NCBI GenBank assembly: GCA_005954745.1
Contig: CP040678.1
Location: 3,100,001-3,164,000, forward strand
DNA length: 64,000 nt
Direction of reading: 5' to 3'
DNA from: Halostella pelagica
GTDB lineage: Archaea > Halobacteriota > Halobacteria > Halobacteriales > Natronoarchaeaceae
Part shown: in pieces, positions 12,307-28,300 of the stretch
Numbering within the stretch: position 1 is the first letter of the stretch
How the letters are laid out: the number at the start of each line of letters is the position of its first letter
The notes under the pieces: generated by a model
Told to the model about the DNA's origin: nothing
Seen by the model: the letters and a program-made list of their open reading frames with translations, nothing else
Database searches by the model: none
Made by a program: the position numbers and the translations under genes

Positions 12307-13455
12307 ATGGATCTCCACGAGCGAATCGAACGGAGACAGAACACGGCCCGAGAGAGCGGTCTGATCGTCGACCGAACTCCGCTCAACCCCGCCGTCCACT
12401 TGCCGGAACCCGTCGGGAGAGGACCAGTTCTGGAACGGTTGCTGGACGTGCTCGATCCGGTGTTCCGTCAACAGCTCCCCGACGACGTGGCCGTGTTCGG
12501 TCCGAAAGGGTCGGGGAAGTCCGCGCTCGTCAGCGCGCTGTTTGCGGGCCTGAACGACCAGATCGGTCGGGACCGCCAGCGGATCGGAACGACGACTCGG
12601 GCCGGAAGCGCCGAGGGCACGACCCAGTTCGTTCGGGTCGACGCAACGAACGCACGCAGCGAGTTCCGTTTCTATCACACGCTGCTTACCGCCGTTGTCG
12701 ACGAGTCAGTGCCCGAGCGCGGCGTCGGGACGGACACGCTCCGAGAGCGACTGGCCGACCAGTTGCAGGTACCGACACGCTGTGCTGTCGTCGCCGTCGA
12801 CCACCTCACGGACGTCGAAGATGTCTCCGTAACTGACCTGCTCGAATGGTTCGAACCTGTCGACGACGCAGTGACGGTCGTCCCGATCGGTCACGAGGTT
12901 CCGGAGACGTGGACCGGCGAAACCGTCCACGTCCCGGAGTATCGACAGCACGCGCTCGTCGACATTCTGACGACCCGCGCCTCGCAGGCGCTCGAAAGCG
13001 GGGCGCTGAGACACGGCCAGGCTCGCCGGATCGCCGAATGGGCCGGCGGCGACGCCCACGACGCCCTCGCCGCAACCTTCGGCGCGGCGGACACCGCTGA
13101 CCGGGCTGGTGCCGACCGGATTCGGGCCAACGATGTCGACGCCGGTATCGACGCCGTTCCGGAGAACTGCGTCCATCTCGGACGCGTCCTCGGCCTCCCC
13201 GAGAACCGCCAGCGGGTGCTCTCCGAACTGCTCCGCCTCGACGGGACACCCACGATCCGCGAGGCCGCCGCCGCGATCGCGGAGGGGTCCGATCTCACCG
13301 CGAGCACCGTCAAGCGGTTCCTCTACGAACTCGCCGAGAACGGCGTTCTCGAACGGGTACAGACGACAGACGCCCACGGAAACGGTCGAACTCCCAGCCA
13401 CGTTGTCCCGCGTTTTCCGACCCTCGTATTCCGGCGACTCGACGGAGACCTGTAG
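12307..13455 (+). CDS. Orc1/Cdc6-like AAA+ ATPase with winged-helix domain
   Basis: A 382-residue relative of archaeal Orc1/Cdc6 proteins. The Walker A loop is intact (GPKGSGKS, residues 65-72), but the Walker B strand reads CAVVAVDHL, with His where the catalytic Glu of DE is expected. The C-terminal 110 residues form a winged-helix domain (RQRVLSELLRLDG...STVKRFLYELAENGVLERV). It starts 4 bp after gpdC and so seems to belong to the glycerol operon. No ORB-like element lies nearby, so an origin role is unlikely at this site; a regulatory DNA-binding role is possible but unproven. Confidence 0.75.
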   Translation: MDLHERIERRQNTARESGLIVDRTPLNPAVHLPEPVGRGPVLERLLDVLDPVFRQQLPDDVAVFGPKGSGKSALVSALFAGLNDQIGRDRQRIGTTTRAGSAEGTTQFVRVDATNARSEFRFYHTLLTAVVDESVPERGVGTDTLRERLADQLQVPTRCAVVAVDHLTDVEDVSVTDLLEWFEPVDDAVTVVPIGHEVPETWTGETVHVPEYRQHALVDILTTRASQALESGALRHGQARRIAEWAGGDAHDALAATFGAADTADRAGADRIRANDVDAGIDAVPENCVHLGRVLGLPENRQRVLSELLRLDGTPTIREAAAAIAEGSDLTASTVKRFLYELAENGVLERVQTTDAHGNGRTPSHVVPRFPTLVFRRLDGDL

Positions 13456-13495: not shown

Positions 13496-14461
13496 TCAGG
13501 CGTACTCCAGATCGTCCGTCAGATGATCGACTGCGAGGACTAACAGCCCGCCGGCGACGGCGGCGACGACGGCGAGAACGGTCACACCGCCGTTTGAGAC
13601 GACCCGCTCCGCGGGCAGACGAAGCCCGCCGACCATGAGACTCACGAGGAAGGTGAGCGTCGCCGCCCGGTAGTTCGACAGCGCCCAGTCGATAACGCGG
13701 GCCAGCGTGAGCAGGCCGGCGAAAGCGCCGGCCATGAACGCGGCGACGGGCGGAACTGCATCGACGACCGCCGCGACCGATCCGCCGTCCGCCAGATCGG
13801 CCAATGCGTCAGTAAAGCGGTTGAGCGCGCCGAGCATGTACTCGTACTGACCGACGAGTATCAGGAGGAACGCCCCCGAAACGCCGGGGAGGATCATCGC
13901 ACACACTGCGAGCGCACCAGCGAGGAGGATGACCGGTAGCGCGTGCGAGACGCCCGCTGACGCCCGTCCCGTCACTGCCGCGGCGAGCCCCACGCCCGCG
14001 ACGGCGACGGCGACGCGTCCCGACGTGGTGAGGTCGACCTGTTCGTAGAGAACGACAGCGGACGCGCCAATGAGGCCGAAGAAGAAGGCGTACGTCGGGG
14101 CCGGATAGGCGTCGACGGCGCGTTCGAGCGCGTGCGACAGGCTGACGACGGCTGTCATCATCCCCACGCCGAGCGTGAGCAGGAAGACGATGTCCATCCG
14201 GACCAGTTGCGACCGAACCGCGCGGCGGGACTCCGGGTCGTGGACGCGGACAACGTCGCGGAGAGTTCGGAGGTCGATAGCCGTCAGCGCCGCGATGAGG
14301 CGCTCGTAGATGCCGGTGATGAGCGCGATTGTCCCGCCGGAGACGCCGGGAACGGTGTCGGCGCTTCCCATGAAAAACCCTTTCAGGTAGATCGCCAGCC
14401 ACTCGCGAAAGGAGTCGACGGACTGGCGCTCCCGGAACGAGTCGACTGAGCCAGACACCAT
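13496..14461 (-). CDS. DUF368 (PopT-like) polyprenyl-phosphate translocase candidate
   Basis: A 321-residue membrane protein with about eight to ten hydrophobic segments and the two DUF368 signature repeats: DTVPGVSGGTIALITGIYE near the N-terminus and MILPGVSGAFLLILVGQYE in the middle, an internal duplication. Bacterial DUF368 proteins (PopT) return undecaprenyl phosphate across the membrane. Here the gene starts 4 bp after the aglB stop, so both are in one operon; AglB releases dolichyl (pyro)phosphate on the outer face. Recycling that carrier is a reasonable inference for this protein. No signal peptide beyond the first membrane segment. Confidence 0.85.
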   Translation of the reverse strand: MVSGSVDSFRERQSVDSFREWLAIYLKGFFMGSADTVPGVSGGTIALITGIYERLIAALTAIDLRTLRDVVRVHDPESRRAVRSQLVRMDIVFLLTLGVGMMTAVVSLSHALERAVDAYPAPTYAFFFGLIGASAVVLYEQVDLTTSGRVAVAVAGVGLAAAVTGRASAGVSHALPVILLAGALAVCAMILPGVSGAFLLILVGQYEYMLGALNRFTDALADLADGGSVAAVVDAVPPVAAFMAGAFAGLLTLARVIDWALSNYRAATLTFLVSLMVGGLRLPAERVVSNGGVTVLAVVAAVAGGLLVLAVDHLTDDLEYA

Positions 14462-14465
14462 ATGA

Positions 14466-17456
14466 TCAGGGCGTCGTAGCTCTCACGAACCGGCCGTCGA
14501 GTGCGGTAGCCGACTCGTTACCGTCGCCGGAGGCACCGTCGCTGCCGGTGCCGTCGTCTCCGACCGTCGTGTTCCCGTTGTCGGTCGTCTCGTTGTCGGC
14601 GGTCTCGTTGTCGGCGGTCTGGTTGTCGCTGGTCTGGTTATCGGCGGTGTCGTTGACATCGAGGTTCTCTTCGATGCCCTCCATCTCGACGGTGACGTTG
14701 TCGCCCTCGTAGATGGCCCGTTCGGGCACGTCGGCGTTACCGATCTGGCCGGGGTTTTCGAGGTTCTGGAGGATGTGTCGGTCCCCGATCCGTTCAGCGT
14801 TGACGCCCTCCAGGCTCCCGGTGAAGACGGTGTAGTTGCCCGCCGCGCGGACGCTGGAGTTCGTGTAGCCGTCGTCCGGTCCGAGCGTCTCCTCGGTCGG
14901 ATACGGAACGGTCACCGTGAAGTCGCCGTTCTCGTCGGTTTCGACGCTCTGGTAGTAGGTGAACTGACGCTGGTCTTGCGTCCCGTTGAGTTGAACCATC
15001 GCAGTCACCGATGTCGCGTTAGAGGCGTTGACGCTGCCCTCGAGGGTCGCCCCGTCGACGCGCTCGAAGGTTTTGACGGTCGACTCTCGACGGATGTCGT
15101 AGGCACCGACATCAGGACGCTGGAGCATGTTCGCGAGGCGACCCGTGAACCGTCGGTTGATGGCCACCGGTCGCGTTGCCCCACCCTCAGTCCGCTGGGC
15201 GAGGCTCAGTATGGTCGTATCGGACCGGGTTTCGTGCACCAGCCGGTAGTGCGAGAGCTGCTGGCTGTCGTGGTAGTACATCCGCGACAGCATCGTGTTC
15301 TCGAATCGGTCGTTCATTCCGTAGAGGTTAGCCGGCTGTTGTGCCTGTCCCTCGGCTGTCTGGAACGTGATCATCCGCTCTTGCGTGCTGAGGTAGTCGC
15401 CGAACGATGGACCGGCCCAGCGCGTTATCGGGCTGAACTTGTTGCTCGCCATCTGGTCGTCGATCATCACGTACCGGGTGTCCTCCCGTGCTTCCGCTTC
15501 GCTCTGTTGTGCGATGACCTCGCGGAGTTCGTCGTTCGAGAGGTCGCTGATGTGTTCGTCGCGCTCGTCGAGCGACGGCAGCGCTTCCAGAACGAGTTCG
15601 GCGCGCGTCTCGTTCGTCGTCTGGAGGAACTCGGACGCAGGCCGCGGTCCCTGCTGGAACGGGTTGGCGTTCGGTATCCGCTCACCCTGGACGGTGATCC
15701 AGTGGCCGTAGTCCCACCACGACATCACGCCGTAGGCGCCTTCGGGATAGTCGTAGTCGTCGGTCTGCTCGTACGTCTCGTACATCTCCATCGGTTCGCC
15801 GTCGGGGTTCGCGTAGGTTCCCGGTTCGGGGGTGTTCTCCTGGAGCCAGCCGGTGCTTTCGGCCCAGTACGCGGACGAGCCCGGACCGGTCGAATTGCCG
15901 GCTTCGGCCGCGGCCGTGCTCGCTGACGAGGACGCGAGCGGTCCGACGAGGGGGACGGTTACGAGCAGGAGGACGGCGACCAGCGTCAACACCTGATACC
16001 CCTTGATGTCGGTCAGACGCTTCGCCGACGTCGGAACGTCGAGCAGGCGGAGTATCTGCCCGAACAGCCAGGCGTTCAGCAGGACGACGGAGATAGCGAG
16101 GTAGTAGTTGAACCGCTGCTGCGTCAGTGACATCAGGACGAGGAAGACGGTGAGCACGACCAGCAGGAGTTCGTCCGGGCGGTAGTCGTCGCCGGCGAGC
16201 GCGATATGCGCTGCCATCCAGAACAGACCGAACGCCGCCGTGAGATAGGTCAGTCCGTACTGGCTGATCATGAAGGAGCCGGCGTCATCGAGTGAGACCG
16301 CCTGCACCTCTCCCACGGTCCGGCCCGTGTCGCTCGACCCGAGCGCGAAAACGCGGACGACGTTATCCTGGATGAGCGAGAACGCGTCGGGAAGGATGAC
16401 GGCCATCAGAACAGCCCCAGAGAGGATGCCGCCCGCGATCACGGCCGGGTAGTAGTGGCGGGCGATGTCCCGGTCGTCGAACTCGCGGGCGAGCCACGCC
16501 ATGAACGCACAGCCGGCGGCGACGGCGATGGCGATCAGATACTGGGTCAGCGAAATCGTCGTCGTCTCGAAGCTCAGCGAGCCAGTTTTGACGACGAGCA
16601 TCGGAACGACCGTCGCGAGGCTGACGACGCCGACGAACGCGGTGTGGTCGGGGCTCCGTCCGCGGACGTAATCGAGGGTCAGCGAGACGGTGAAGAAGGC
16701 CCCGAGGATGCCGATGAAGATGATGCCTGGCGGCCAGGTCCACAGGTACAGCGCGATGGCGACGCCCGCGAGAACGCTAGCGATCGTCGGGTCGCGGAGA
16801 GCCTCCCAGTCGCGGTCCACGACGAGTTCGTACACCGGCTTTTCCTGCTGGGCGACTCGGAGGGCGCGGACAACCATGACGAGGGCGATAGAGAGGAAGA
16901 ACGCCTCGGCGATGTGGTGGTCGCCGAACCCGACGGTGCCGCGGTCCAGAATGTATCCCGGAAGGATCGCAAGCACGAAGACGCCGAACAGAGCGCCGAG
17001 GCGGCCGGCGTAGTGTTTGCCGAGGTAGTAAAGCGGGAACACAAGAAGGGTCCCGAACACCGCGGGTGCGTAGAGAAGCACCGTCCGGACGGTCTCGCCG
17101 GAGGGGTCTCCCAGGCCGACGACCAGGGCGGCGGTCGCGACTATCTGGTCGAACAGCGAACCGAACTGGCCACCGGACGTCGTGCCGTAGGGGAAGTGCG
17201 TGTACGGATCGAACGGCATCGTCCAGGGCCAGTTGTTGACCGTGTACTGGATTTCGCGGTAGTGGTAGTATGCGTCGTTACCTCTGAACAGTATCTCGCC
17301 GCCGCTGGTGAAGCGCTCGCGCGCCTGGATCCGGACCCAGAACATGAACGCCACCAGCACCGAGAGAACCGGCACGTGATACCAGTCCTCCCAGATATCG
17401 AGCACCGACCGCTCGTTGGCGGTCTCGTCCTCGACCGTTTCGGTCTCGCTACTCAT
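14466..17456 (-). CDS. aglB: Oligosaccharyltransferase AglB (STT3 family)
   Basis: A 996-residue STT3-type enzyme that moves the lipid-linked glycan onto Asn in N-x-S/T of exported proteins. The N-terminal half holds about 13 membrane segments with the catalytic acidic motifs FRGNDAYYHY and VGFGDHHIAEAF. The C-terminal soluble domain carries WWDYGHW at residues 580-586. A minus-strand TATA-like CCTATAGG about 28 bp upstream (near 17480) indicates leaderless transcription, divergent from the glycosyltransferase gene. Odd feature: near the C-terminus five 15-bp repeats encode (D)NET/NQT units, giving seven sequons within about 45 residues of the enzyme itself. Confidence 0.96.
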   Translation of the reverse strand: MSSETETVEDETANERSVLDIWEDWYHVPVLSVLVAFMFWVRIQARERFTSGGEILFRGNDAYYHYREIQYTVNNWPWTMPFDPYTHFPYGTTSGGQFGSLFDQIVATAALVVGLGDPSGETVRTVLLYAPAVFGTLLVFPLYYLGKHYAGRLGALFGVFVLAILPGYILDRGTVGFGDHHIAEAFFLSIALVMVVRALRVAQQEKPVYELVVDRDWEALRDPTIASVLAGVAIALYLWTWPPGIIFIGILGAFFTVSLTLDYVRGRSPDHTAFVGVVSLATVVPMLVVKTGSLSFETTTISLTQYLIAIAVAAGCAFMAWLAREFDDRDIARHYYPAVIAGGILSGAVLMAVILPDAFSLIQDNVVRVFALGSSDTGRTVGEVQAVSLDDAGSFMISQYGLTYLTAAFGLFWMAAHIALAGDDYRPDELLLVVLTVFLVLMSLTQQRFNYYLAISVVLLNAWLFGQILRLLDVPTSAKRLTDIKGYQVLTLVAVLLLVTVPLVGPLASSSASTAAAEAGNSTGPGSSAYWAESTGWLQENTPEPGTYANPDGEPMEMYETYEQTDDYDYPEGAYGVMSWWDYGHWITVQGERIPNANPFQQGPRPASEFLQTTNETRAELVLEALPSLDERDEHISDLSNDELREVIAQQSEAEAREDTRYVMIDDQMASNKFSPITRWAGPSFGDYLSTQERMITFQTAEGQAQQPANLYGMNDRFENTMLSRMYYHDSQQLSHYRLVHETRSDTTILSLAQRTEGGATRPVAINRRFTGRLANMLQRPDVGAYDIRRESTVKTFERVDGATLEGSVNASNATSVTAMVQLNGTQDQRQFTYYQSVETDENGDFTVTVPYPTEETLGPDDGYTNSSVRAAGNYTVFTGSLEGVNAERIGDRHILQNLENPGQIGNADVPERAIYEGDNVTVEMEGIEENLDVNDTADNQTSDNQTADNETADNETTDNGNTTVGDDGTGSDGASGDGNESATALDGRFVRATTP
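14577..14651 (-). repeat. Five 15-bp tandem repeats inside aglB encoding N-glycosylation sequons
   Basis: Units begin at 14577, 14592, 14607, 14622 and 14637, each close to GTTGTCGGCGGTCTC on the plus strand. Translated on the minus strand they give DNQTS/DNQTA/DNETA/DNETT-like pentapeptides. The repeat lies in the extracellular C-terminal domain just before a Gly/Asp/Ser-rich tail. Confidence 0.9.
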
Positions 17457-17601
17457 TAGGTTTGGATCCTCCGAAAACGCCTATAGGCCTTGTGATACGG
17501 ATCGCCGACTGCTGTCGGGATCTGGACGCTTCGCGTCACGGACCGAACCGGACGGGTCAAAGGGGAAAACCACTACTGTGGGGCCGACGAATCGCGTCGT
17601 G

Positions 17602-18519
17602 ATGAAGGTTTCAGTGGTTCTATGCACCTACTCGCTGGACGTGTACGGCCACTTCCGCGAGGCCGCCGACAGCATCCTCGACCAGACGTACGACGACGTC
17701 GAACTCGTCATCGTCGTCGACGGGACGACGAAGGTGTACGACCGTGTGCGCGAGGACTACGGCACCCGCGACGGCGTCGTCCTCCACTGCAACGACGAGA
17801 ACCTGGGATTACTGAAGAGCCGGAACAAGGGGACCGAACTCGCGTCCGGCGATATCGTCGCGTTCACTGACGACGACGCGGTTGCCGACGAGGAGTGGGT
17901 CGCTGAACTCGTCGACACTTACGAGACCCACGACGCTCTCGCGGCCGGCGGGAAGATGACGCCCGCCTGGGTCGCCGGGAAACCGTCGTTTCTCCCCAGC
18001 GAGTTCTACTGGCTGGTCGGCGTCACGCACCGTGGGTTCGCAGACGGCCCTGGCGAAGTGCGCAACACGTTCGGCGCGAACATCTCCTTTCGACGCGACG
18101 TCTTTCTCGACCTCGGCGGTTTTGACCCGAACATCGGCGGCCGGAAAGGCGACAAGAATCTCCAGGGCGGTGAGACGGAACTGGCGGCGCGTCTCCGCAG
18201 GGAGTACGGGGAGGGCGTCCGGTACAACCCGAACGCGACGGTCGCCCACAAGGTGTTCGAGTACCGGACGGACCCCGTCTGGTTGCTGAAACGCGCGTTC
18301 TGGCAGGGGTATTCGAAGCGCGCGATGGAGACGCTCGTTCCCGATTCGACCGGCGAAGAGAGCGAGTTCCTCGGCAAGTTGCTCTTCCGGTTCGTTCCGG
18401 ACCGGACGAAACGGGCCATCTCCGAACAGTCCGGGTCGCAGGCGCTCAAGGCGCTCTCGCTGCTCGTCTTCACCGGCGTCGTCGGCCTCGGCTATCTCTA
18501 CGGGACGGTGAAATGGTGA
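17602..18519 (+). CDS. aglG: AglG-like glycosyltransferase (family 2)
   Basis: A 305-residue GT2 enzyme close in style to haloarchaeal AglG, which adds glucuronic acid to a glucosyl-dolichyl-phosphate acceptor on the cytosolic face. It begins MKVSVVLCTYSLD, with the GT-A fold, the nucleotide-diphosphate motif FTDDDAVADEEW, a GGETELAARLRR acceptor/catalytic region, and one C-terminal hydrophobic segment (LSLLVFTGVVGLGYLY). The frame is open to 17416 but the ATG at 17602 gives the family N-terminus. It is divergent from aglB and overlaps the next glycosyltransferase gene by 7 bp. Exact sugar specificity is not established. Confidence 0.85.
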   Translation: MKVSVVLCTYSLDVYGHFREAADSILDQTYDDVELVIVVDGTTKVYDRVREDYGTRDGVVLHCNDENLGLLKSRNKGTELASGDIVAFTDDDAVADEEWVAELVDTYETHDALAAGGKMTPAWVAGKPSFLPSEFYWLVGVTHRGFADGPGEVRNTFGANISFRRDVFLDLGGFDPNIGGRKGDKNLQGGETELAARLRREYGEGVRYNPNATVAHKVFEYRTDPVWLLKRAFWQGYSKRAMETLVPDSTGEESEFLGKLLFRFVPDRTKRAISEQSGSQALKALSLLVFTGVVGLGYLYGTVKW

Positions 18520-19691
18520 CGAGCGATACCGCGGGCGGGGATGTCGACCCTCGCACCGACGACGAGGGGGTCTGCGTCGTCACCCACCCTCTTGCCGCCG
18601 CGGGGGAGAACGCGACGCGAACGCTGCTGGAGATCATAAGCGCCGTCACGACGGTGTCGCTGATCACGGCCGACCTTCCCCGAGACTCCGCGATCCGCGA
18701 CCGGCACGAGGTCGTCGAGATAACGCGGGAGGGTGCGGGCGACAACATCGCCGTCGCCGCCGTCCGCTTCGTTCTGAACCAACTGCGGATGTGTCGGGCT
18801 ATCGCGCGGCGGGACGAGGAGGTCGTCCTCTTCTTCGGCGCGACGTCGTACGTCCTTCCCGTCGTCGTCGCGTCGCTTCTCGGCAAGACCGTCGTCCTCG
18901 AACCCCGCGGCGACGTTCCACTGACGCTCCGCCTCAACTGGGAGGAGCGCCTCCCCTCGCCGGTCGCGCGAGCGCTGGCTGGCGTCGTGTGGACGCTCGA
19001 ACGGATCAACTACCATCTGGCTGACGCCGTTATCACGTACACGCCGTCGATGGCCGCGGAACTCGGCCTCGACGACTTCCGGGAGAAACTCCATCCGAAC
19101 GGCGCGCGCTACGTCGATACCGACGAGTTCGACGTGGACGTTCCGTACCAAACGCGCGACCGAACGGTCGGGTTCCTCGGCCGCATCGACGAGGAGAAGG
19201 GGATCCGGGAACTCGCCGCCGTCGCGCGCCGCCTGCCCGACGACGTGACGTTTCGCTTCATCGGCGACGGCGACCTCTCCGACTGGCTGGAAGCCGAACT
19301 CGCGGACGAGATCGCGCAGGGGTCGGTCGAACTCGCGGGATGGGTCGACCACGACGAGGTTCCGGCGGAACTGAACGACCTCCGCCTGCTCGTCATGCCG
19401 TCCCAGCCGACCGAGGGCTTACCGACGACTATCCTGGAGTCGCTCGCCTGCGGAACGCCGGTGTACGCGACGCCGGTGTCTGGCATTCCCGACGTGGTAC
19501 GCGACGGGGAAACCGGGTTCCTCATGACCGAACGCGACCCCGAGGCGATAGCCGACGAGATAGCGCGCGTGCTGAGCGAACCGGACCTCGTCGCGGTGAG
19601 CGGGAACTGCAGGGCGTTGACCGAAGAGAAGTACTCCTTCGAGGCCGCCGTCGAGCGGTACGCGGCGATCCTCGACGGCATCACGCGGTGA
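18513..19691 (+). CDS. GT4-family glycosyltransferase
   Basis: A 392-residue GT-B enzyme of family 4. The donor-side domain shows GRIDEEKGIRELAAVARRL, VSGIPDVVRDGETGFLM and the E-x7-E motif (EGLPTTILESLACGTPV). The acidic N-terminal 22 residues are a halophilic extension. Its start is inside the end of the AglG-like gene, so the two are coupled, and its 3' end overlaps the convergent flippase gene by 11 bp. It probably adds a later sugar of the lipid-linked glycan; donor and acceptor are unknown. Confidence 0.85.
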   Translation: MVTSDTAGGDVDPRTDDEGVCVVTHPLAAAGENATRTLLEIISAVTTVSLITADLPRDSAIRDRHEVVEITREGAGDNIAVAAVRFVLNQLRMCRAIARRDEEVVLFFGATSYVLPVVVASLLGKTVVLEPRGDVPLTLRLNWEERLPSPVARALAGVVWTLERINYHLADAVITYTPSMAAELGLDDFREKLHPNGARYVDTDEFDVDVPYQTRDRTVGFLGRIDEEKGIRELAAVARRLPDDVTFRFIGDGDLSDWLEAELADEIAQGSVELAGWVDHDEVPAELNDLRLLVMPSQPTEGLPTTILESLACGTPVYATPVSGIPDVVRDGETGFLMTERDPEAIADEIARVLSEPDLVAVSGNCRALTEEKYSFEAAVERYAAILDGITR

Positions 19692-21096
19692 CGTTCGCCG
19701 GGAGCAGCGCGACGGCCTTCTGTCGGACTCTGGTCGAGAGCACGACGAGCGTCGCCCCGTAGACGGCCCCGCCGACGAGAACGAGCGCGACGGTCGCGTA
19801 GTGCGACCCCGGAACGACGCCGGCGAGCGCGTACACCGCGCCGGTCATCACCAGACTCGCGCCGAACTGGTGTGCCATCTCACGGTAGGGAACGTCCGGC
19901 CGGCCGATGAGCGAGGTGAGAGCGAAATAGCCGAGGACGAGCGTTATCGTCGCCGAGAGCGCCGTCGCGATCGCCGCACCGTACCAGCCGAACTGCGAGA
20001 TGAGACCGACGTTGAGGACGATGTTCGAGACGACGAAGACGAGGTTGATCCGGAAGGCCACGTCGGGACGGTCGATCGCGTTGATCGCGCTGAGAAACTG
20101 CGCCCCGAACGCCGCTAAGGTGCGAGCGACGATGAGCACGAGCAGGATCGTCGCACCGCGGGTGAACTCCGGTCGGTAGATCTTGAGCAGTCGCGGGCCG
20201 ATGACCGCCGCGCCGAACAGCCCGGGGATCGCGAACACGCCGGTGAACACGAGCCCTTCGTTGATGTAGTGATGGACCCGGTCGTAGTTCTCCTCGACGG
20301 AAAGCTCGCTCAGTTCCGGGAACAACGTCTTCTGAACGGAGTTGCTCACAAGCGCCAGTGTCGAGGCGAGTGTCCACGACACTTCGTAGATACCGATGAG
20401 CGCCGACGGAACGAAGAAGGCGAGAACGATCGTGTCCATCCACCCGAACGCGCGGGTCTTGATCGTCCCGAGCCAGGAGTATCGGGCGTACTCGGCCAGA
20501 CGCCTGACGTGCTTACGCGTCGGCCGCGCGGGCCGAACCTCGAAGAGAAACACGCCGAGCACCGCGGCCGCCGCCAGCGACACCGCGTGGCCGACGAGAA
20601 GCCCCGTCAATTTGTACCCGAGCAGGATCAGCGCCACCTGAAAGCCGGTCCGGCCGACGCGCTCGACGGAGCGTAGGATACCCGTCTGGGCCACTCTCTT
20701 CTGGCCGTTGAGTGCCCCGATGACGGTTATCATCGCCACGTTGCCGACGACGAGCGCGGCGACGAGGCCGCTGACGGACGCGCCCACGTAGTCGTTGACC
20801 TGCTCGCCGAAGGCGACGATACCGACCGCGACCGTGGCCGCGACTGCGGCGTTCAGCAAGAACCCGACAGTGAGATACGACCCGCGGTCGGAGCCCTCGC
20901 TGACGCGCTTGTTGACCGCGCTACCCACGGCACTCGCCGGGATGTTGAGCCAGAACAGAAGCGCAACTGCGACGGCGTACGTCCCGAGTCCGGACGCACC
21001 GAGAACGCGGGCGATAGCGAAGGTGGCGGCGAACCCGGCGAGCGAGACGCCGACCTGCGACGCGAAGTGGATCAGCGTGGTTCTACCGAGACGCAT
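19681..21096 (-). CDS. Wzx/AglR-type polysaccharide flippase
   Basis: A 471-residue membrane protein of the MOP superfamily (polysaccharide transporter branch) with about 12-14 membrane segments, beginning MRLGRTTLIHFASQVGVSLAG. Typical features are the paired hydrophobic blocks and the central cytosolic basic loop (RPARPTRKHVRRLAEYARYS). It should move the dolichol-linked glycan to the outer face, the step assigned to AglR in Haloferax. Translation could begin upstream in frame, but the ATG at 21096 overlaps the stop of the preceding sulfatase-like gene by one base (TAATG), which fixes the start and indicates an operon. Confidence 0.85.
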   Translation of the reverse strand: MRLGRTTLIHFASQVGVSLAGFAATFAIARVLGASGLGTYAVAVALLFWLNIPASAVGSAVNKRVSEGSDRGSYLTVGFLLNAAVAATVAVGIVAFGEQVNDYVGASVSGLVAALVVGNVAMITVIGALNGQKRVAQTGILRSVERVGRTGFQVALILLGYKLTGLLVGHAVSLAAAAVLGVFLFEVRPARPTRKHVRRLAEYARYSWLGTIKTRAFGWMDTIVLAFFVPSALIGIYEVSWTLASTLALVSNSVQKTLFPELSELSVEENYDRVHHYINEGLVFTGVFAIPGLFGAAVIGPRLLKIYRPEFTRGATILLVLIVARTLAAFGAQFLSAINAIDRPDVAFRINLVFVVSNIVLNVGLISQFGWYGAAIATALSATITLVLGYFALTSLIGRPDVPYREMAHQFGASLVMTGAVYALAGVVPGSHYATVALVLVGGAVYGATLVVLSTRVRQKAVALLPANVTA

Positions 21097-22487
21097 TATT
21101 CCATGTAGCCGAGGTCTTGGAGTTGTTTTTGCATCGCGTCGGTGAGTTCTGAACCTTCGCCGGTTGCAATGAGTCGCCCATCGGTCGATAGCCACTCTGA
21201 GAGTTCGTCGTCCAGTTCAGACGCTGTGTTCGGGTGTTCAGACGTGACATCCGTGATCTCGTCGGGCAGTTTGAACAGTCGGGAGCGCCCCTCACTTTTC
21301 TCGTACCTGAACTCTCGGGTGCGGAGGCTCGTGAGCATATCGGAGTGAAACTGCGTCGTGTCGAAATCCGGGTTTCGGTCCAGATAGGGCTCGAAGTTCG
21401 CCCCCTGGCGCTGCGAGATAACCCGTTCGCGGACCGTTTGTCGCATATCGATTCCCTGTAACCCGTCGGTGGATGCGCCACCCATATCGGCGAGCGTTCG
21501 CATGAGATCGAGATGTTGAACGAGGCCGTCGGACGGATAATCGACGTCGTCGAGACCGTGAACCACCAGCGGCACGTGCGTTACCGCGTCGTTGATCACG
21601 ATGCGATGGGCGAGCATCCCCCGCTCGCCGAACAGTTCGCCGTGGTCGGCGGTGATGACGACGACGGTGTCGTCCAGATCGAGCGACTGGACGTGATCGA
21701 AGAGTCGGCCGACCATCTCGTCGGTGTACGCGATCTCTGCGTCGTACATCGCCTCGATCGCGCGCTGTTCCGTCTCCGTGAGGTCGTAGCCGTCAGCGAC
21801 TATCTCCTCCATGTCGTAGTGGACACGCATCGCGATGTCAGCCGCCTCCTCGGCGGAGATATTCAACCCGTCCGTGTATCTGTCCAGATACGGGAGCGGC
21901 GGATAGTAGGGACGGTGCGGTTCGTTGTAGTGAAGGTAGAAAAAGAACGGCTCGTCGCCGCCGAGGTCGGTGAACCACTTTTTGGCGACTTCGTTCATCA
22001 AAAACGGGGTCGCGTGTTTGGCCGTGTCGTGCGTTACTCCGGCGGAGTGGCTGCGAATGTTCAGGAAGTACTTGGCTATCGTCTCCGGACCGAGAACGTC
22101 CAGAAACGTCGAGGCGGCGAGCCACTCGAACCTGTCGAACCCTCGGTCGAGACCGGTGCCGGAACTGACGTAGGAGTTCCGGGAGAGTCCGGCCGTTGCG
22201 TATCCGGCGTCACCGAGCCGTTCGGCGACAGTATCGAGTTCCTCTGGGATCGATTCGTTGGCGATCCGTAACCCGTGGTGTGACGGGTACACGCCGGTCA
22301 GAATAGAGGCGGCGGACAGCGCCGTCGCGTTCCCCGCAGCAAAGCAGTTCGAGAGATACTCTCCGCTTTCCGAGTCCGCGATCCGCTGGAGGTTCGGCGT
22401 CGTATCGCGGTCGTACCCACCCATCGTGGTATGGTCCGCACGGACGCTGTCAAGGGTGATCCAGAGGATATTCGGAGGGGTCGCCAT
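21096..22487 (-). CDS. Alkaline-phosphatase-superfamily (sulfatase-like) enzyme with Thr at the nucleophile site
   Basis: A 463-residue cytosol-type protein with sulfatase fold: metal ligand motif ITLDSVRADH (D13), active-site helix at residues 55-65 (TALSAASILTG) and ITADHGE near the C-terminal third. Where sulfatases have Cys of C-x-P-S-R, this protein has T55, so it cannot be converted to formylglycine; Thr is the nucleophile in phosphodiesterase and phosphoalcohol-transferase relatives. No signal peptide. It ends with LQDLGYME. A TATA-like GGAAATAAC about 26-30 bp before the ATG at 22487 supports this start over 22502. It is in an operon with the flippase gene, so it may act on glycan or lipid carrier. 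Confidence 0.82.
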   Translation of the reverse strand: MATPPNILWITLDSVRADHTTMGGYDRDTTPNLQRIADSESGEYLSNCFAAGNATALSAASILTGVYPSHHGLRIANESIPEELDTVAERLGDAGYATAGLSRNSYVSSGTGLDRGFDRFEWLAASTFLDVLGPETIAKYFLNIRSHSAGVTHDTAKHATPFLMNEVAKKWFTDLGGDEPFFFYLHYNEPHRPYYPPLPYLDRYTDGLNISAEEAADIAMRVHYDMEEIVADGYDLTETEQRAIEAMYDAEIAYTDEMVGRLFDHVQSLDLDDTVVVITADHGELFGERGMLAHRIVINDAVTHVPLVVHGLDDVDYPSDGLVQHLDLMRTLADMGGASTDGLQGIDMRQTVRERVISQRQGANFEPYLDRNPDFDTTQFHSDMLTSLRTREFRYEKSEGRSRLFKLPDEITDVTSEHPNTASELDDELSEWLSTDGRLIATGEGSELTDAMQKQLQDLGYME

Positions 22488-22742
22488 CGTTACGTAGTCC
22501 ACCGGGAAGTTATTTCCATCTTTCCCTCTCAGTCGCCGTTACGGAGACGTATCGGTTCGATGAATACCGCTAGTTCAACTGTCTCGGATGACGCGTAGTA
22601 TCCAAGCCCTGTGAGATCGGGGCCGAGTTCCGTTCGAGTCGGGAAACCTATCGTTTACCGCGGGGCGGATCTGATAACAGACGGTACCTGATGAATAATG
22701 GTGAAGTAACTTACTTAATGGAGTACTGTTTACACCCGCGAA

Positions 22743-23726
22743 ATGACTGTTGTCGTACTGGGTATCGACGCTTTAGATCCCGACCTCGTGGATCCAGCCC
22801 AGCATCCTCACCTCACGCTAGAGAACTACCGCTCTATCGAAACGATCTCCAGCAGTGCCGGCGAACCGAGTACGCACGAACTGTGGCCGACGATCATCAC
22901 CGGGCTCAAACCGGCTAATCACGGATTAACGCTCGAAGATGACGGAGTCGCATGGGGTAACCCCCTTCTCGACGCCGGCAGTACTGCCGCGGACTACGTC
23001 CTTCCCGACGGGCTACAGAACCGGATCGGGGAATGGCTACTCACGAACACGGCGGCAGATGCGTTCCGGACTCCAGCGGACTACTACGAGGAAAACGGGA
23101 TCGAGACGGTGTTTGACGGACGCGACACGAAACCGATCGGGATCCCGAACTACGTCGTAGACCCCGACGAAGAAGACCGCGAACACGCGTTACGTCGGAG
23201 TCTCGGCGACCTCTTCGAGCGCGACCAGTCGGCCGTAGGCGGACACAGTTCGTCGGACGCGGACGCCTTCTACGAACAGTGTATGGAGATGGCGATGATC
23301 CGACTGGCACGAACTCGGCGGGCCCTCCGGAACGGCGAGTACGAACTCGTGTTCGGCTACACGAGCGGCCTCGACCTCATCGGTCACGTGGCCTACGACC
23401 GTCCGGACCTCCAACACCGTGCGTACGAGGAACTGGACCAGTTCGTCGGTGAACTCCGTGACGACCTCGGACCGGAAGACGAACTGCTGCTGGTGAGCGA
23501 CCACGGACTCCAGGACGGAGTACACACCCACGAGGCGATGGTCGCCGCGACGAACGAACGGCTGGTAGAGGGTGTAGAGAGCGTCACCGACGTGCGAGCG
23601 GCCATCGACGCTGAACTCTCCGCGACGGACCACGACCGGACACCACGAAGGGATATCGAAGGCCCGGCCGATACCCACGACGGAGACGAAGTCCGCGAGC
23701 AGTTAGAGAGCCTCGGCTACATGTAG
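22743..23726 (+). CDS. Alkaline-phosphatase-superfamily phosphodiesterase-like protein
   Basis: A 327-residue protein of the nucleotide pyrophosphatase/phosphodiesterase branch. It starts VVVLGIDALD (metal ligand D9), has the nucleophile region STHELWPTIITGL with T44, and later LDLIGHVAYDRP and LLVSDHGLQDG metal-binding motifs. It lacks a signal peptide. Its C-terminus is LESLGYM, matching the tails of its two neighbours. A CTTACTTAATGG promoter element about 27 bp upstream suggests a nearly leaderless transcript. It is followed after 5 bp by another sulfatase-like gene. Substrate unknown; pyrophosphate or phosphodiester bonds in sugar-nucleotide or dolichol intermediates are possible. Confidence 0.82.
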   Translation: MTVVVLGIDALDPDLVDPAQHPHLTLENYRSIETISSSAGEPSTHELWPTIITGLKPANHGLTLEDDGVAWGNPLLDAGSTAADYVLPDGLQNRIGEWLLTNTAADAFRTPADYYEENGIETVFDGRDTKPIGIPNYVVDPDEEDREHALRRSLGDLFERDQSAVGGHSSSDADAFYEQCMEMAMIRLARTRRALRNGEYELVFGYTSGLDLIGHVAYDRPDLQHRAYEELDQFVGELRDDLGPEDELLLVSDHGLQDGVHTHEAMVAATNERLVEGVESVTDVRAAIDAELSATDHDRTPRRDIEGPADTHDGDEVREQLESLGYM

Positions 23727-23731
23727 TACTT

Positions 23732-25189
23732 ATGAAACCAAACGTCCTCCTCGTCGTCCTCGACAGTGTCAGAGCCAAAAACGTCTCCGCGTACGGTCAT
23801 CACCACGAAACGACACCGTTTCTGGACCGCTTCGCAGACCGGGCGACGCGCTACGAACAAGCCCGGTCGCCCGGGGCCAAGAGTCTCACGAGTCATACGA
23901 GCCTTTTCACCGGCCTCCACGTCGAGGAACACGGCGTCACGTCGACCGACCACTCTATCGACCCTGAATACACTGTGTTCGCCGACCTCCGCGACCAGGG
24001 GTACGATACCGGTGTGTTCTCGGAGAACACCTGGATCACAGACGTCGAAGTCGGGCTGAAGGACGGCTTCGATACCGTCGTGGGCCCCCAGAACTCGCCG
24101 TTTCCGGACGTCGTCAATCCGAAGGAGTTCGTCGCGAAGGAAGGCCGCGGCCAGTACGGGGAGTATCTGAAGGCGTCACTGACGAGCGCTGCACCCGTTA
24201 AATCGTTACTGAACGGCGTCGCGATGAAGTTGGCCTGGGACCATCCCACTCTCGTACCCGACTTCCTCAAGGCGACGACGCCGGCCGACGTCTACACCGA
24301 TTTCTTCCTCGACTGGCAAGCGGAGCGCACCGGTCCGTGGGCCGCTTGCATCAACTTGATGGATGGACACATCCCGTACGAACCGCGCGACGAACACGAC
24401 CAGTGGGGCGGCGAGAAAGCGCGGGCGATCCAGAACGAGACGGAGGATCACAAGTGGGAGTTCAACGGCGGCCAGCGCCCATGGTGGCAGCGAAAGGCCG
24501 TCGAAAGCCTCTACGACGGTGCGATACGTCAAATGGACGCGGAACTGGAGCGACTTCTGAAGACGTTGGAAGAGCGAGGCGTCCTCGATGAGACGCTGGT
24601 TGTGATCACGAGCGACCACGGAGACGGGTTCGGAGAGCCGAGTTTTGTTCGGCCAAACACTCGCGTGTCGGAACACGGCGTGGCGATCCACGAAACCCTG
24701 TTCCACGTTCCGCTGTTCGTAAAGTCGCCCGGCCAGACGGAGGGACGAACCATCGAGGAACCGGCCACGCTGACGGAGTTCCCGGCAGCAGTTCGCGCGG
24801 CAGTGGACGGAACGTACCGTGACGGTGACGAGTTCGTTCCGGACGGACCCGTGCTGGCGTCGGCGGCGGGACTTACCGAACCCCTGAAAGAACGTGCGAG
24901 TGAGTACGTCGACGACCTCACACCGTACACGGCACGGTCGAAAGCCGTGTACGAGACACACGAGAACGAGGTTCGAAAGCACGTCACGTGGCGCGACCAG
25001 TCGGCGACCGTCGGCATCCGAGACGCACAGACGGTGTATCTCTCGTCCCGAAACGACTCGGCATCGGGAACGGCAGTCGAAGCGGCGTTCGACGGTATCG
25101 ACGATGCCGGCGTCAAAGCGGACGCCGGCGGCGTCGAGGAGGTAGACGAGACGACGTATCAACGCTTGGAGGACCTCGGCTACGTGTAG
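23732..25189 (+). CDS. Sulfatase-like alkaline-phosphatase-superfamily enzyme with Ser at the nucleophile site
   Basis: A 485-residue protein beginning MKPNVLLVVLDSVRAKN (metal ligand D11). The active-site segment is S51-L-T-S54-H55 followed by TSLFTG, where sulfatases read C-x-P-S-R; Ser replaces the formylglycine Cys, and His replaces Arg. The second metal site is VITSDHGDGFGE. No signal peptide is evident. The C-terminus is LEDLGYV. It lies 5 bp after the phosphodiesterase-like gene and 59 bp before aglF. Codon use looks less GC-rich than in aglM, so the sulfatase-like trio may have been inserted into the agl locus. Either an unusual Ser-type sulfatase or a phosphatase/transferase. Confidence 0.82.
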   Translation: MKPNVLLVVLDSVRAKNVSAYGHHHETTPFLDRFADRATRYEQARSPGAKSLTSHTSLFTGLHVEEHGVTSTDHSIDPEYTVFADLRDQGYDTGVFSENTWITDVEVGLKDGFDTVVGPQNSPFPDVVNPKEFVAKEGRGQYGEYLKASLTSAAPVKSLLNGVAMKLAWDHPTLVPDFLKATTPADVYTDFFLDWQAERTGPWAACINLMDGHIPYEPRDEHDQWGGEKARAIQNETEDHKWEFNGGQRPWWQRKAVESLYDGAIRQMDAELERLLKTLEERGVLDETLVVITSDHGDGFGEPSFVRPNTRVSEHGVAIHETLFHVPLFVKSPGQTEGRTIEEPATLTEFPAAVRAAVDGTYRDGDEFVPDGPVLASAAGLTEPLKERASEYVDDLTPYTARSKAVYETHENEVRKHVTWRDQSATVGIRDAQTVYLSSRNDSASGTAVEAAFDGIDDAGVKADAGGVEEVDETTYQRLEDLGYV

Positions 25190-25248: not shown

Positions 25249-25977
25249 ATGCAAGCAGTCATCCTCGCTGCGGGCAAAGGAACCCGCCTCCGCCCGCTCA
25301 CCGAAGACAAACCGAAAGTCCTCGTCGAAGTCGACGGAAAGCCGCTCATCGAGGACGTGTTCGACAACCTGGTCGACATCGGCATCGACGAGTTCGTCGT
25401 CGTCGTCGGCTACAAGAAAGAGAAGATCATCGAGCGCTACGACGACGAGTACCGCGGCGTCCCGATCACCTACGCTCACCAGCGCGAACAGTTGGGGCTG
25501 GCGCACGCGCTCCTCCAGGCCGAACCCCACGTCGACGACGACTTCGTGCTGATGCTCGGCGACAACATCTTCCGGGCGAACCTCGGCGACGTGATCCGCC
25601 GTCAGCAGGAGGACCGCGCGGACGCCGGCTTCCTCGTCGAGGAGGTACCGATAGAGGAGGCGTCGCGGTACGGCGTCTGCGACACGAACGAGTACGGCGA
25701 GATCGTCGAACTGATCGAGAAACCGGACGACCCGCCGTCGAACCTCGTGATGACCGGGTTCTACTCGTTCACGCCGGCGATATTCCACGCCTGTCATCTG
25801 GTCCAGCCGAGCGACCGCGGCGAGTACGAACTCCCGGACGCCGTCGACCTCCTCATTCAATCCGGGCGGACTATCGACGCGATCAGGATGGACGGGTGGC
25901 GGATCGACGTCGGCTACCCCGAGGACCGCGACGAGGCGGAGCGTCGATTGGACGAGACAGAGGCCGCGGATCACTGA
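25249..25977 (+). CDS. aglF: Glucose-1-phosphate nucleotidyltransferase AglF
   Basis: A 242-residue sugar-phosphate nucleotidyltransferase with the signature AAGKGTRLRPLTEDKPK at the N-terminus, a conserved LMLGDNIF metal-binding aspartate and ELIEKPDDPPSN. Haloarchaeal AglF joins UTP to glucose-1-phosphate, supplying UDP-glucose for oxidation by AglM. It has no left-handed beta-helix C-terminal domain, in line with the short AglF/RfbA-like form. It opens a run of three sugar-nucleotide genes (aglF, SDR, aglM). Confidence 0.9.
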   Translation: MQAVILAAGKGTRLRPLTEDKPKVLVEVDGKPLIEDVFDNLVDIGIDEFVVVVGYKKEKIIERYDDEYRGVPITYAHQREQLGLAHALLQAEPHVDDDFVLMLGDNIFRANLGDVIRRQQEDRADAGFLVEEVPIEEASRYGVCDTNEYGEIVELIEKPDDPPSNLVMTGFYSFTPAIFHACHLVQPSDRGEYELPDAVDLLIQSGRTIDAIRMDGWRIDVGYPEDRDEAERRLDETEAADH

Positions 25978-26036: not shown

Positions 26037-27020
26037 ATGAACGTCCTCGTTACCGGTGGCGCGGGCTTTATCGGCTCGCACATCGCCGAACGACTCCTCC
26101 GTGACGGGCACCGCGTGACGGTGCTCGACAACATGGACCCGTACTACGACCTGGGGATCAAAGAACGCAACGTCGAACGCTGCCGTGACGCCGGTGACGA
26201 CCGCTTCGAGTTCGTCGAGGGGTCGATCACTGACGAGGGGTTAGTTCGCGACGTGATCGCTGGCGACGACATCGAGTTCGTCTACCACGAGGCGGCGAAA
26301 GCCGGCGTTCGGACGAGCGTCGAGAACCCGCAGGCGTACAACGAGAACAACGTCGGGGGCCTCCTGAACCTCCTCGAAGCGGCGGACGACCACGGCGTGA
26401 CGCGACTCGTCAACGCCTCCTCCTCCTCCGTGTACGGCAAGGACGACTATCTGCCGTACGACGAGGAGCATCCAAACTACCCGCAGAGCCCTTACGCGAT
26501 CACGAAGCTGAGTTCCGAGCACTACTGTCGCGTGTGGGACAACCTCCACGATATTTCGACGGTGAGCCTGCGCCACTTCACCGTCTACGGCCCGCGGATG
26601 CGGCCGAACATGGCGATCACGAACTTCACGACCCGATGTCTCAACGGCGAACCGCCGGTGATCTACGGCGACGGTCAGCAGACGCGCGACTTCACGTACA
26701 TCTCCGACATCGTCGACGCCAGCGTCGCGTTGCTCGATACCGACGCCGCCGACGGCGAGGAAATCAACGTTGGCTCGTCGGGCAACATCACGATCCAGGA
26801 ACTCGCCGAACACATCATCGCGGAGACGGGCGCGGACGGCGACATCGAGTACACCGACGCCAACGAGGCCGACGCACGCCACACGCACGCCAACGTGTCG
26901 AAAGCGGCGGAGTTGCTTGACTACGAACCGCAGGTGAGTATCAGGGAGGGGGTCTCCCGGTTCGTCGACTGGTATCGGGAGAACCGCGAGTGGTACGAAC
27001 CGCTGGTGATCAACTCGTGA
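26037..27020 (+). CDS. NAD-dependent sugar-nucleotide epimerase/dehydratase (extended SDR)
   Basis: A 327-residue extended short-chain dehydrogenase. The Rossmann motif is GGAGFIGSH near residue 7 and the catalytic pair is Y153-x3-K157 (PYAITK) with an upstream Ser-rich NASSSSVYG. The substrate region includes RHFTVYGPRMRPNMAI and GDGQQTRDFTYI, typical of UDP-glucose or UDP-glucuronate 4-epimerases and related dehydratases. The start ATG at 26037 gives the family N-terminus MNVLVTGGAGF. Its last four bases overlap the GTG start of aglM. It probably interconverts UDP-hexuronic or UDP-hexose donors for the N-glycan; the exact reaction is not fixed by sequence alone. Confidence 0.88.
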   Translation: MNVLVTGGAGFIGSHIAERLLRDGHRVTVLDNMDPYYDLGIKERNVERCRDAGDDRFEFVEGSITDEGLVRDVIAGDDIEFVYHEAAKAGVRTSVENPQAYNENNVGGLLNLLEAADDHGVTRLVNASSSSVYGKDDYLPYDEEHPNYPQSPYAITKLSSEHYCRVWDNLHDISTVSLRHFTVYGPRMRPNMAITNFTTRCLNGEPPVIYGDGQQTRDFTYISDIVDASVALLDTDAADGEEINVGSSGNITIQELAEHIIAETGADGDIEYTDANEADARHTHANVSKAAELLDYEPQVSIREGVSRFVDWYRENREWYEPLVINS

Positions 27021-28300
27021 ACGTCTCTATCGTCGGAAGCGGCTACGTCGGCACGACCGTCGCGGCCTGTCTCGCCGACCTCGGTCACGAGGTCGTCAAC
27101 GTCGACATCGACGAGGACGTCGTCGCGTCGATCAACGACGGCGACGCGCCGATCCACGAGGACGGCCTCCAGGAACGGATCGAACGGAACGCGGGCGGTC
27201 GCCTCCGCGCGACCACCGACTACGCCGCGGCCGCAGAGACGGACCTCACGATGCTGTGTCTGCCGACGCCGTCGGAGGCGGACGGCAGCATCGACCTCGC
27301 AGTCATGGAGGCCGGCGCGGAGGCGCTCGGCAACGCGCTCGCCGAGAAGGACGGCCGTCACGCCGTCGTCACGAAAAGCACCGTCGTCCCCGGCACTACG
27401 GACGACGTGGTCGGCCCCGCCGTCGCCGAGGCATCGGGCAAGACCGTCGGCGACGACCTCGGCCTCGGGATGAACCCTGAGTTCCTCCGGATGAGCACGG
27501 CCGTCGAGGACTTCCTCCACCCCGACAAGATCGTCGTCGGAACTGAACAGCCGTGGGTCCGGGACCGCCTCCACGAACTCTACGCCGACCTCCGGGAGGA
27601 GACGGCCGTCGTCGACACCGGCCTGCGCGAGGCCGAGATGATCAAGTACGCCAACAACACGATGCTGGCGTCGAAGGTGTCGCTGGTCAACGAACTCGGC
27701 AACGTCTGCAAGGAACTGGATGTCGACGCATACGAGGTGTTCGACGCCGTCGGCCTCGACGACCGCATCTCCGACCAGTTCCTGCGCTCAGGGCTCGGCT
27801 GGGGCGGCTCGTGCTTCCCGAAGGACGTCGACGCCGTCCGCGCGGTCGCCCGCGAACAGGGGTACGAACCCGAACTGCTGAACGCCGTCGTCGACGTGAA
27901 CGACCTGCAGCCCCGCCGGATGGTCGACCTCCTCGCGGACCACGTCGACCCCGAGGGCGCACGCGTCGCCGTCCTTGGAGTCGCGTTCAAACCCGGCACG
28001 GACGACGTTCGGGGGTCGCGCGCGATGGACCTCATCGGTGTCCTTCGGGACCGCGGCGCGGAGGTCGTCGCGTACGACCCCGTCGCGACCGAGAACGCGC
28101 GGGAGAAATACCCCGACGTGCGCTACGCCGACTCCGCCGAGGACGCGCTGGCCGACGCCGACGCCGCCATGGTCGCGACCGACTGGCCCGAGTTCGACGA
28201 GCTCGAGTTCTCGGCGATGGCCCGCTCGGTACTGATCGACGGCCGCCGGATCGACGTGGACACGGATGCGCTTGACGTGTACGAGGGATTGACCTGGTAG
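27017..28300 (+). CDS. aglM: UDP-glucose 6-dehydrogenase AglM
   Basis: A 427-residue UDP-sugar dehydrogenase making UDP-glucuronate from UDP-glucose with two NAD+. Motifs: N-terminal Rossmann GSGYVGTTVAACLADLGH, MNPEFLRMSTAVEDF, the catalytic cysteine C266 in WGGSCFPKDVDAV, and GVAFKPGTDDVRGSR in the C-terminal domain. The start is a GTG at 27017 overlapping the upstream SDR stop (GTGA). Together with AglF it supplies the donor used by AglG-type glucuronosyltransferases. Confidence 0.95.
   Translation: MNVSIVGSGYVGTTVAACLADLGHEVVNVDIDEDVVASINDGDAPIHEDGLQERIERNAGGRLRATTDYAAAAETDLTMLCLPTPSEADGSIDLAVMEAGAEALGNALAEKDGRHAVVTKSTVVPGTTDDVVGPAVAEASGKTVGDDLGLGMNPEFLRMSTAVEDFLHPDKIVVGTEQPWVRDRLHELYADLREETAVVDTGLREAEMIKYANNTMLASKVSLVNELGNVCKELDVDAYEVFDAVGLDDRISDQFLRSGLGWGGSCFPKDVDAVRAVAREQGYEPELLNAVVDVNDLQPRRMVDLLADHVDPEGARVAVLGVAFKPGTDDVRGSRAMDLIGVLRDRGAEVVAYDPVATENAREKYPDVRYADSAEDALADADAAMVATDWPEFDELEFSAMARSVLIDGRRIDVDTDALDVYEGLTW

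Follow-up and report, generated by a model that had tools for sequence, protein, structure and literature searches.

An aglB-linked DUF368 gene of Halobacteria as a candidate return flippase for dolichyl phosphate

How is the lipid carrier of N-glycosylation brought back into the haloarchaeal cell once its glycan has been transferred to protein? This question is raised by two neighboring genes in a 64,000-nt stretch of the Halostella pelagica genome (GenBank assembly GCA_005954745.1, contig CP040678.1, positions 3,100,001 to 3,164,000; hereafter the window, in whose own numbering coordinates are given). To our knowledge, no consensus exists for Archaea on how dolichyl phosphate returns to the inner face of the membrane, and the same has long been asked of eukaryotes. 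On the minus strand of the window, aglB, encoding the archaeal oligosaccharyltransferase (14466-17456; 996 aa), is directly followed by a gene encoding a DUF368, PopT-like protein (13496-14461; 321 aa). Direct reading placed both open reading frames (ORFs) where the original prediction had them, with the aglB TGA and the DUF368 ATG separated by 4 nt (14462-14465), and this close spacing suggests that the two genes share one transcript. Scans for sigma-70 promoters and terminators, whose coverage excludes archaeal promoters and whose output was not used, detected nothing resembling a promoter and a single terminator-like site, on the opposite strand.

Profile searches bore out the identities originally assigned to the two genes. 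The AglB protein matched PF02516, PF22627 and PF18079 (STT3, AglB core and AglB_L1, respectively), each above its cut-off, as well as the NCBIfam model TIGR04154 (archaeo_STT3; 803 bits, cut-off 450, 826 of 831 positions), and its translation contains the sequence MSWWDYGHWI, which includes WWDYG, the catalytic motif of AglB and archaeal oligosaccharyltransferases. The downstream protein matched positions 1-226 of 246 of PF04018 (4.1e-66; 223.5 bits, cut-off 26), a family now named undecaprenyl phosphate translocase-like; this was its sole Pfam match at E up to 0.001, with no match to PF09335 (DedA, VTT domain). Against the two NCBIfam equivalogs for polyprenyl-phosphate transporters (PopT), NF052564 and NF052563, it scored 191.6 and 92 bits, both below the cut-off of 400, and we therefore regard it as a member of PF04018 rather than as an orthologue of the proteins that these models describe. 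The H. pelagica genome carries this single DUF368 gene and two STT3 matches, one of which is the aglB of the window.

To place the pair in context we surveyed 145 Halobacteria genomes from 58 genera, drawn evenly from the class (genomes and loci are referred to by our own G and L numbers), and found DUF368 in 144 of them and in 57 of the genera. Of 155 matches, 147 were analysed with their flanks, which spanned ~9 kb per side in most loci and 1.5 kb in 27 copies, all 27 of them linked to aglB; for three of the genes, longer loci (L051-L053) were used in place of L003, L019 and L022. The eight matches outside this count were those of G028, G034, G047, G052 and G084 and the second copies in G005, G073 and G089; in G028 and G034 the coordinates show DUF368 to be unlinked to aglB. 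In 65% of the copies (95/147), aglB occurred directly 5' of DUF368 on the same strand, with gaps of -17 to +157 nt that did not exceed 6 nt in 63 of the 94 cases measured, although gaps were measured from the longest possible start and are thus biased towards small values. In five further copies aglB lay 1.4-2.5 kb upstream on the same strand, bringing the linked copies to 100 of 147. The insert in four of these five spaced loci is or includes another agl gene scoring above its curated cut-off (aglM in L048, L053 and L072; aglF in L052), and in the fifth, L050, the one of two inserted frames that was scanned (L050:11009-11872) matched no family. Gene order and orientation were identical in all 100 linked copies, which were distributed over 100 of 139 genomes, 41 of 55 genera and all nine DUF368-bearing families. 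Among 81 clade-1 loci (see below) of 10-19 kb, aglB was present in 73, aglG in 33, a glpC-like gene in 24, an orc-like gene in 13 and a DedA gene, counted with one probe sequence, in 2. Chance does not account for the adjacency of aglB and DUF368: 95 of 147 copies, spread over all nine families with the gene, repeat its order and strand, while the other neighbors turn over. At one locus, L069, the open frames of the two genes overlap by 1774 nt; a fusion was considered and rejected, since the two genes use different frames and the match to DUF368 falls on the 3' side of aglB, and the locus was counted as linked.

A phylogenetic tree of the 147 proteins separated the copies according to this linkage. 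One group, clade 2, comprised 39 copies (support 0.992), none of which was linked to aglB; the remaining 108 copies, clade 1, the type to which the protein of the window belongs, comprised all 100 linked ones and 8 unlinked ones. Four of these eight, all from one genus (g9), directly adjoin aglM, so that 104 of 108 clade-1 copies have kept an agl neighbor. The 39 clade-2 loci (L079 to L150), by contrast, gave no matches for probes of aglB, aglG, GT4, flippase, aglM, aglF, sulfatase, glp, orc or DedA, and no common neighbor reached a third of them, as judged from noisy, greedy ORF calls. Clade 2 thus appears as a free-standing haloarchaeal DUF368, and that it serves exopolysaccharide is a guess. 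Linked and unlinked copies occurred together in 5 of 139 genomes. When bacterial and other archaeal members were added to the tree, the haloarchaeal proteins formed one group (support 0.924) within which clade 2 remained intact. We found no positions fixed differently between the two clades, which share the same invariant residues.

In some lineages the copy beside aglB appears to have been lost in place. The AglB core was found in 44 of the 45 genomes that had no linked copy or no examined copy, the exception being G117, and 20 of the corresponding aglB loci lacking a linked DUF368 were read: 17 of these carry an aglG homologue and none carries a DedA gene. In five of them (L156, L157, L161, L166 and L170), aglB is followed on its 3' side by orc, glpC and glpB as in the window, with DUF368 missing from between, while L038, L055 and L066 have the same orc-glpC-glpB flank with DUF368 in place. 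All five genomes carry a clade-2 DUF368 elsewhere, and the simplest reading is that these genomes, already having a second DUF368, went on to lose the copy beside aglB.

The protein of the window retains the two loops characteristic of its family. The first (residues 28-54, GFFMGSADTVPGVSGGTIALITGIYER; 14300-14380, minus strand) and the second (residues 182-206, GALAVCAMILPGVSGAFLLILVGQY; 13844-13918, minus strand) of these glycine-proline loops are invariant among 25 aligned haloarchaeal members. In loop 1, residues G28, M31, G32, D35, P38, G39, S41, G42, T44 and G50 are invariant in both haloarchaeal clades and conserved in nearly all of 58 bacterial relatives; in loop 2, G182, M189, L191, P192, G193, S195 and G196 are likewise invariant in both clades and recur in the bacterial relatives. 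P38-A46 and part of loop 2 served as the search patterns by which these relatives were collected, so their bacterial conservation is partly by construction. An AlphaFold2 model built from the 25 haloarchaeal sequences (mean pLDDT 90.1, pTM 0.85) predicts a polytopic helical membrane fold in which, as expected for the family, the loops would interrupt two helices: helices 18-36/42-48 and 175-190/196-202 flank the loops, with breaks at 36-42 and 190-196. We found no solved structure related to DUF368 by sequence, and Foldseek returned no match for the model at E <= 0.001. The best VIA-align score (Z 10.0; BbZIP 7z6n_B, rmsd 4.5 over 158 residues) falls in a range common for helical proteins, and the alignments shown, which include neither DedA nor BacA, exclude nothing.

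These features are those of the bacterial PopT family, represented by VCA0040 of Vibrio cholerae and PopT of Staphylococcus aureus, with which the window protein shares PF04018, the loops PGVSGGT and AMxLPGxSG, a polytopic helical build and a predicted function as carrier-phosphate translocase. It differs from them in being archaeal, 31-39% identical to the bacterial relatives compared and under the equivalog cut-offs; in having an oligosaccharyltransferase as its operon partner; and in its carrier, which would be dolichyl rather than undecaprenyl phosphate. The bacterial DUF368 proteins are undecaprenyl phosphate translocases, which return undecaprenyl phosphate (PMC9876793). In Haloferax volcanii, AglB draws its glycan from dolichol phosphate, its donors being monophosphates (PMC3871713). 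A recycling path can therefore be proposed, in which AglB would transfer the glycan from dolichyl phosphate to protein at the outer face, leaving the bare carrier outside; DUF368, made from the same transcript, would return it to the inner face; and AglJ/AglG-type enzymes would there recharge it. The substrate, the inward direction and the shared transcript are inferred. Because AglB would leave behind dolichyl phosphate, the kind of lipid that the DUF368 family moves, and because the pairing is conserved, we consider clade-1 DUF368 a strong haloarchaeal candidate for the return flippase, and we put at roughly 0.68 the probability that the aglB-DUF368 pair serves to recycle the carrier used in haloarchaeal N-glycosylation. 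A bolder version, in which AglB and clade-1 DUF368 form a physical unit that passes dolichyl phosphate straight from the AglB active site through DUF368 to the inside, carrier return determines the rate of N-glycosylation, and clade 1 has specialized as the flippase of AglB, other surface polymers being left to clade 2, is a speculation that we hold to be improbable.

Several observations weigh against this assignment. Within Halobacteria, 47 of the 147 copies were unlinked to aglB in the flanks examined, and DUF368 proteins score under the NCBIfam equivalog cut-offs for polyprenyl-phosphate transporters. G021 (L151), the only one of the 145 genomes without DUF368, nevertheless has aglB; this genome also carries a second STT3 match and DedA domains. 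G117 (L145), whose genome is rated complete, shows the reverse, having neither an AglB core nor any STT3 match while retaining a clade-2 DUF368, which implies that clade 2, at least, has other work. DedA domains were detected in all 145 Halobacteria genomes (1-6 copies) and also in archaeal control genomes without DUF368, so DUF368 need not be the sole recycler. Outside the class, among the 163 non-Halobacteria genomes of a phylum sample (196 less 33 Halobacteria), only 28 carry DUF368. All 28 contain STT3, in none is it adjacent to DUF368, and STT3 was likewise found in 6 of 7 tested non-Halobacteria genomes lacking DUF368 and in the DUF368-less controls Sulfolobus acidocaldarius, Methanocaldococcus jannaschii and Methanosarcina acetivorans. 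Since most STT3-bearing genomes outside Halobacteria do without DUF368, and the two are never neighbors in the 28, archaeal N-glycosylation in itself can dispense with DUF368, and its tight pairing with aglB is particular to haloarchaea. The linkage whose survey the original prediction called for holds in Halobacteria, where 100 of 147 copies lie no more than 2.5 kb from aglB and on its strand, and not outside the class. Its broader proposal, of DUF368 as the missing dolichyl-phosphate flippase of archaea at large, finds no support in these distributions; the candidacy that we propose is not pan-archaeal.

Other roles for the protein would account for some of the same facts. It could be a general polyprenyl-phosphate recycler working for all surface polymers (N-glycans, dolichyl phosphate-mannose, exopolysaccharide), placed beside aglB as the largest consumer without being devoted to it. 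Such a role would agree with clade 2 being the only DUF368 found in many aglB-bearing genomes and persisting in G117 without a detected STT3, and with bacterial relatives that serve several pathways (PMC9876793); however, the tie to agl genes in 104 of 108 clade-1 copies exceeds what a general housekeeping gene would need, and we regard this explanation as unlikely. A further division of labor is suggested by the bacterial DedA and DUF368 families, which overlap in function, with their shares set by pH and Na+ (PMC9876793): DedA-family proteins, ubiquitous in Halobacteria and present in the DUF368-less archaeal controls, could be the main recyclers of dolichyl phosphate, with DUF368 an auxiliary at high Na+ or high pH. 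The near absence of DedA genes from the loci concerned (2 of 81 clade-1 loci, by one probe sequence, and 0 of 20 aglB loci without a linked DUF368) speaks against this, and it appears rather improbable to us.

The protein might alternatively aid the outward step, flipping the glycan-charged dolichyl phosphate towards AglB instead of returning the empty carrier. DUF368 does adjoin the user of the charged carrier, and for the main H. volcanii glycan the identity of the outward flippase is only partly established (AglR for dolichyl phosphate-mannose; PMC3871713). But for bacterial members of the family the substrate is the bare carrier phosphate (PMC9876793), and the agl cluster of the window has its own Wzx/MurJ-like gene (19681-21102, minus strand; Polysacc_synt/MurJ-like membrane protein, PF01943 and PF03023), whose product is a candidate outward flippase of the charged carrier; an outward function of DUF368 is accordingly very unlikely in our judgment. 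Still less credible is that the two genes stay together by a frozen accident, in a region that rearranges slowly, and that their proximity has no functional meaning. Gene order is inherited among related genomes, and for this reason our survey counts are not independent; but the neighbors on both sides turn over (aglG in 33, glpC in 24 and orc in 13 of 81 loci) while aglB persists in 73, every one of the nine families shows the order, and where the locus has lost DUF368 another DUF368 is present elsewhere.

The recycling role of the pair receives a point of contact with experiment in H. volcanii, whose aglB is HVO_RS12050 (PMC7749143) and whose DUF368 is HVO_RS12060, a gene that allowed a V. 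cholerae DUF368 mutant to grow again, at least in part, under alkaline conditions (PMC9876793). The locus tags of this species step by fives (aglF 12035, aglI 12040, aglG 12045, aglB 12050), and therefore one gene, HVO_RS12055 by numbering, should separate the two, in place of none in the window. We take this gene to be aglM. The spacing would then resemble that of aglB-aglM-DUF368 in L048, L053 and L072. AglB goes unmentioned in PMC9876793, and the translocation of dolichol phosphate was already raised there in general terms by Sit et al. In searches that covered few subscription journals, we found no literature linking DUF368 with AglB; queries for PopT with archaea and polyprenyl phosphate, and for HVO_RS12060, retrieved PMC9876793 alone, and neither the link to aglB nor the division into two clades nor the losses in place turned up in a published paper. 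The linkage connects the H. volcanii complementation result, which was obtained for reasons of bacterial cell-wall biology, with an N-glycosylation locus. More generally, a class-wide genetic tie that binds an oligosaccharyltransferase to a member of a family of proven carrier flippases offers a named gene, a genetically tractable host and a clear predicted phenotype.

In 13 named haloarchaeal loci that we examined, aglB adjoins DUF368 in nine (Halostagnicola sp. A56, Halorhabdus amylolytica, Halorubrum sp. Hd13, Halorubrum coriense, Halolamina salifodinae and four metagenome-assembled genomes (MAGs)), and no aglB was found within 6 kb of DUF368 in Halonotius roseus, Halobellus rufus, Natronorubrum halalkaliphilum and Natrarchaeobius chitinivorans, the last two of which have DUF368 proteins that group with clade 2. 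Two other routes of carrier recycling offer a comparison. DedA/UptA proteins (PF09335) likewise return polyprenyl phosphate carriers in bacteria and belong to a family separate from that of the window protein. BacA/UppP and the eukaryotic dolichyl-pyrophosphatase step take part in recycling the carrier after transfer. Both of the latter act on pyrophosphate, whereas the dolichyl monophosphate donors of H. volcanii AglB (PMC3871713) mean that no pyrophosphatase step is needed there.

Looser arrangements were seen outside Halobacteria. In three of three genomes of family f29 (G223, G231 and G247), a distance of 12.6-14.1 kb separates DUF368 from STT3, both on one strand, and in G239 they are 19.7 kb apart on opposite strands. 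In a Thermoplasmata MAG (L184), STT3 precedes DUF368 by 1.9 kb on the same strand, and two unrelated genes occupy the interval, in a run of genes of one direction (L184:207-7625) for STT3, AMMECR1, an amidohydrolase, DUF368 and an inositol monophosphatase family protein. Methanobrevibacter and Methanosphaera (L183, L187, L190 and L193) carry DUF368 without STT3 in the stretch read, and a role in pseudomurein is a guess.

Within the window, the aglB-DUF368 pair lies inside a full agl cluster, as judged from the genes surrounding it. Divergent from aglB is aglG, encoding a glucosyl-dolichyl phosphate glucuronosyltransferase (17596-18519, plus strand; NF041394, 525.7 bits, cut-off 440); next to it is a GT4 family glycosyltransferase gene (18513-19691, plus strand; PF13692, PF00534). 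Beyond these and the MurJ-like gene are aglF, for UTP-glucose-1-phosphate uridylyltransferase (25249-25977, plus strand; NF041313, 442 bits, cut-off 400), and aglM, for UDP-glucose 6-dehydrogenase (26990-28300, plus strand; NF041297, 699.9 bits, cut-off 670). The cluster also includes three sulfatase/phosphodiesterase-like genes (21096-22502, minus strand; 22743-23726 and 23732-25189, plus strand), possibly encoding glycan-modifying enzymes, and sulfatase-like homologues occur in 21 of the 81 clade-1 loci of 10-19 kb. On the other side of the pair, convergent with DUF368 and beside glpABC, lies a divergent Orc1/Cdc6-like gene (12307-13455, plus strand; TIGR02928, 80.6 bits, below the cut-off of 181.3), which was found again adjoining the aglB-DUF368 pair in other families.

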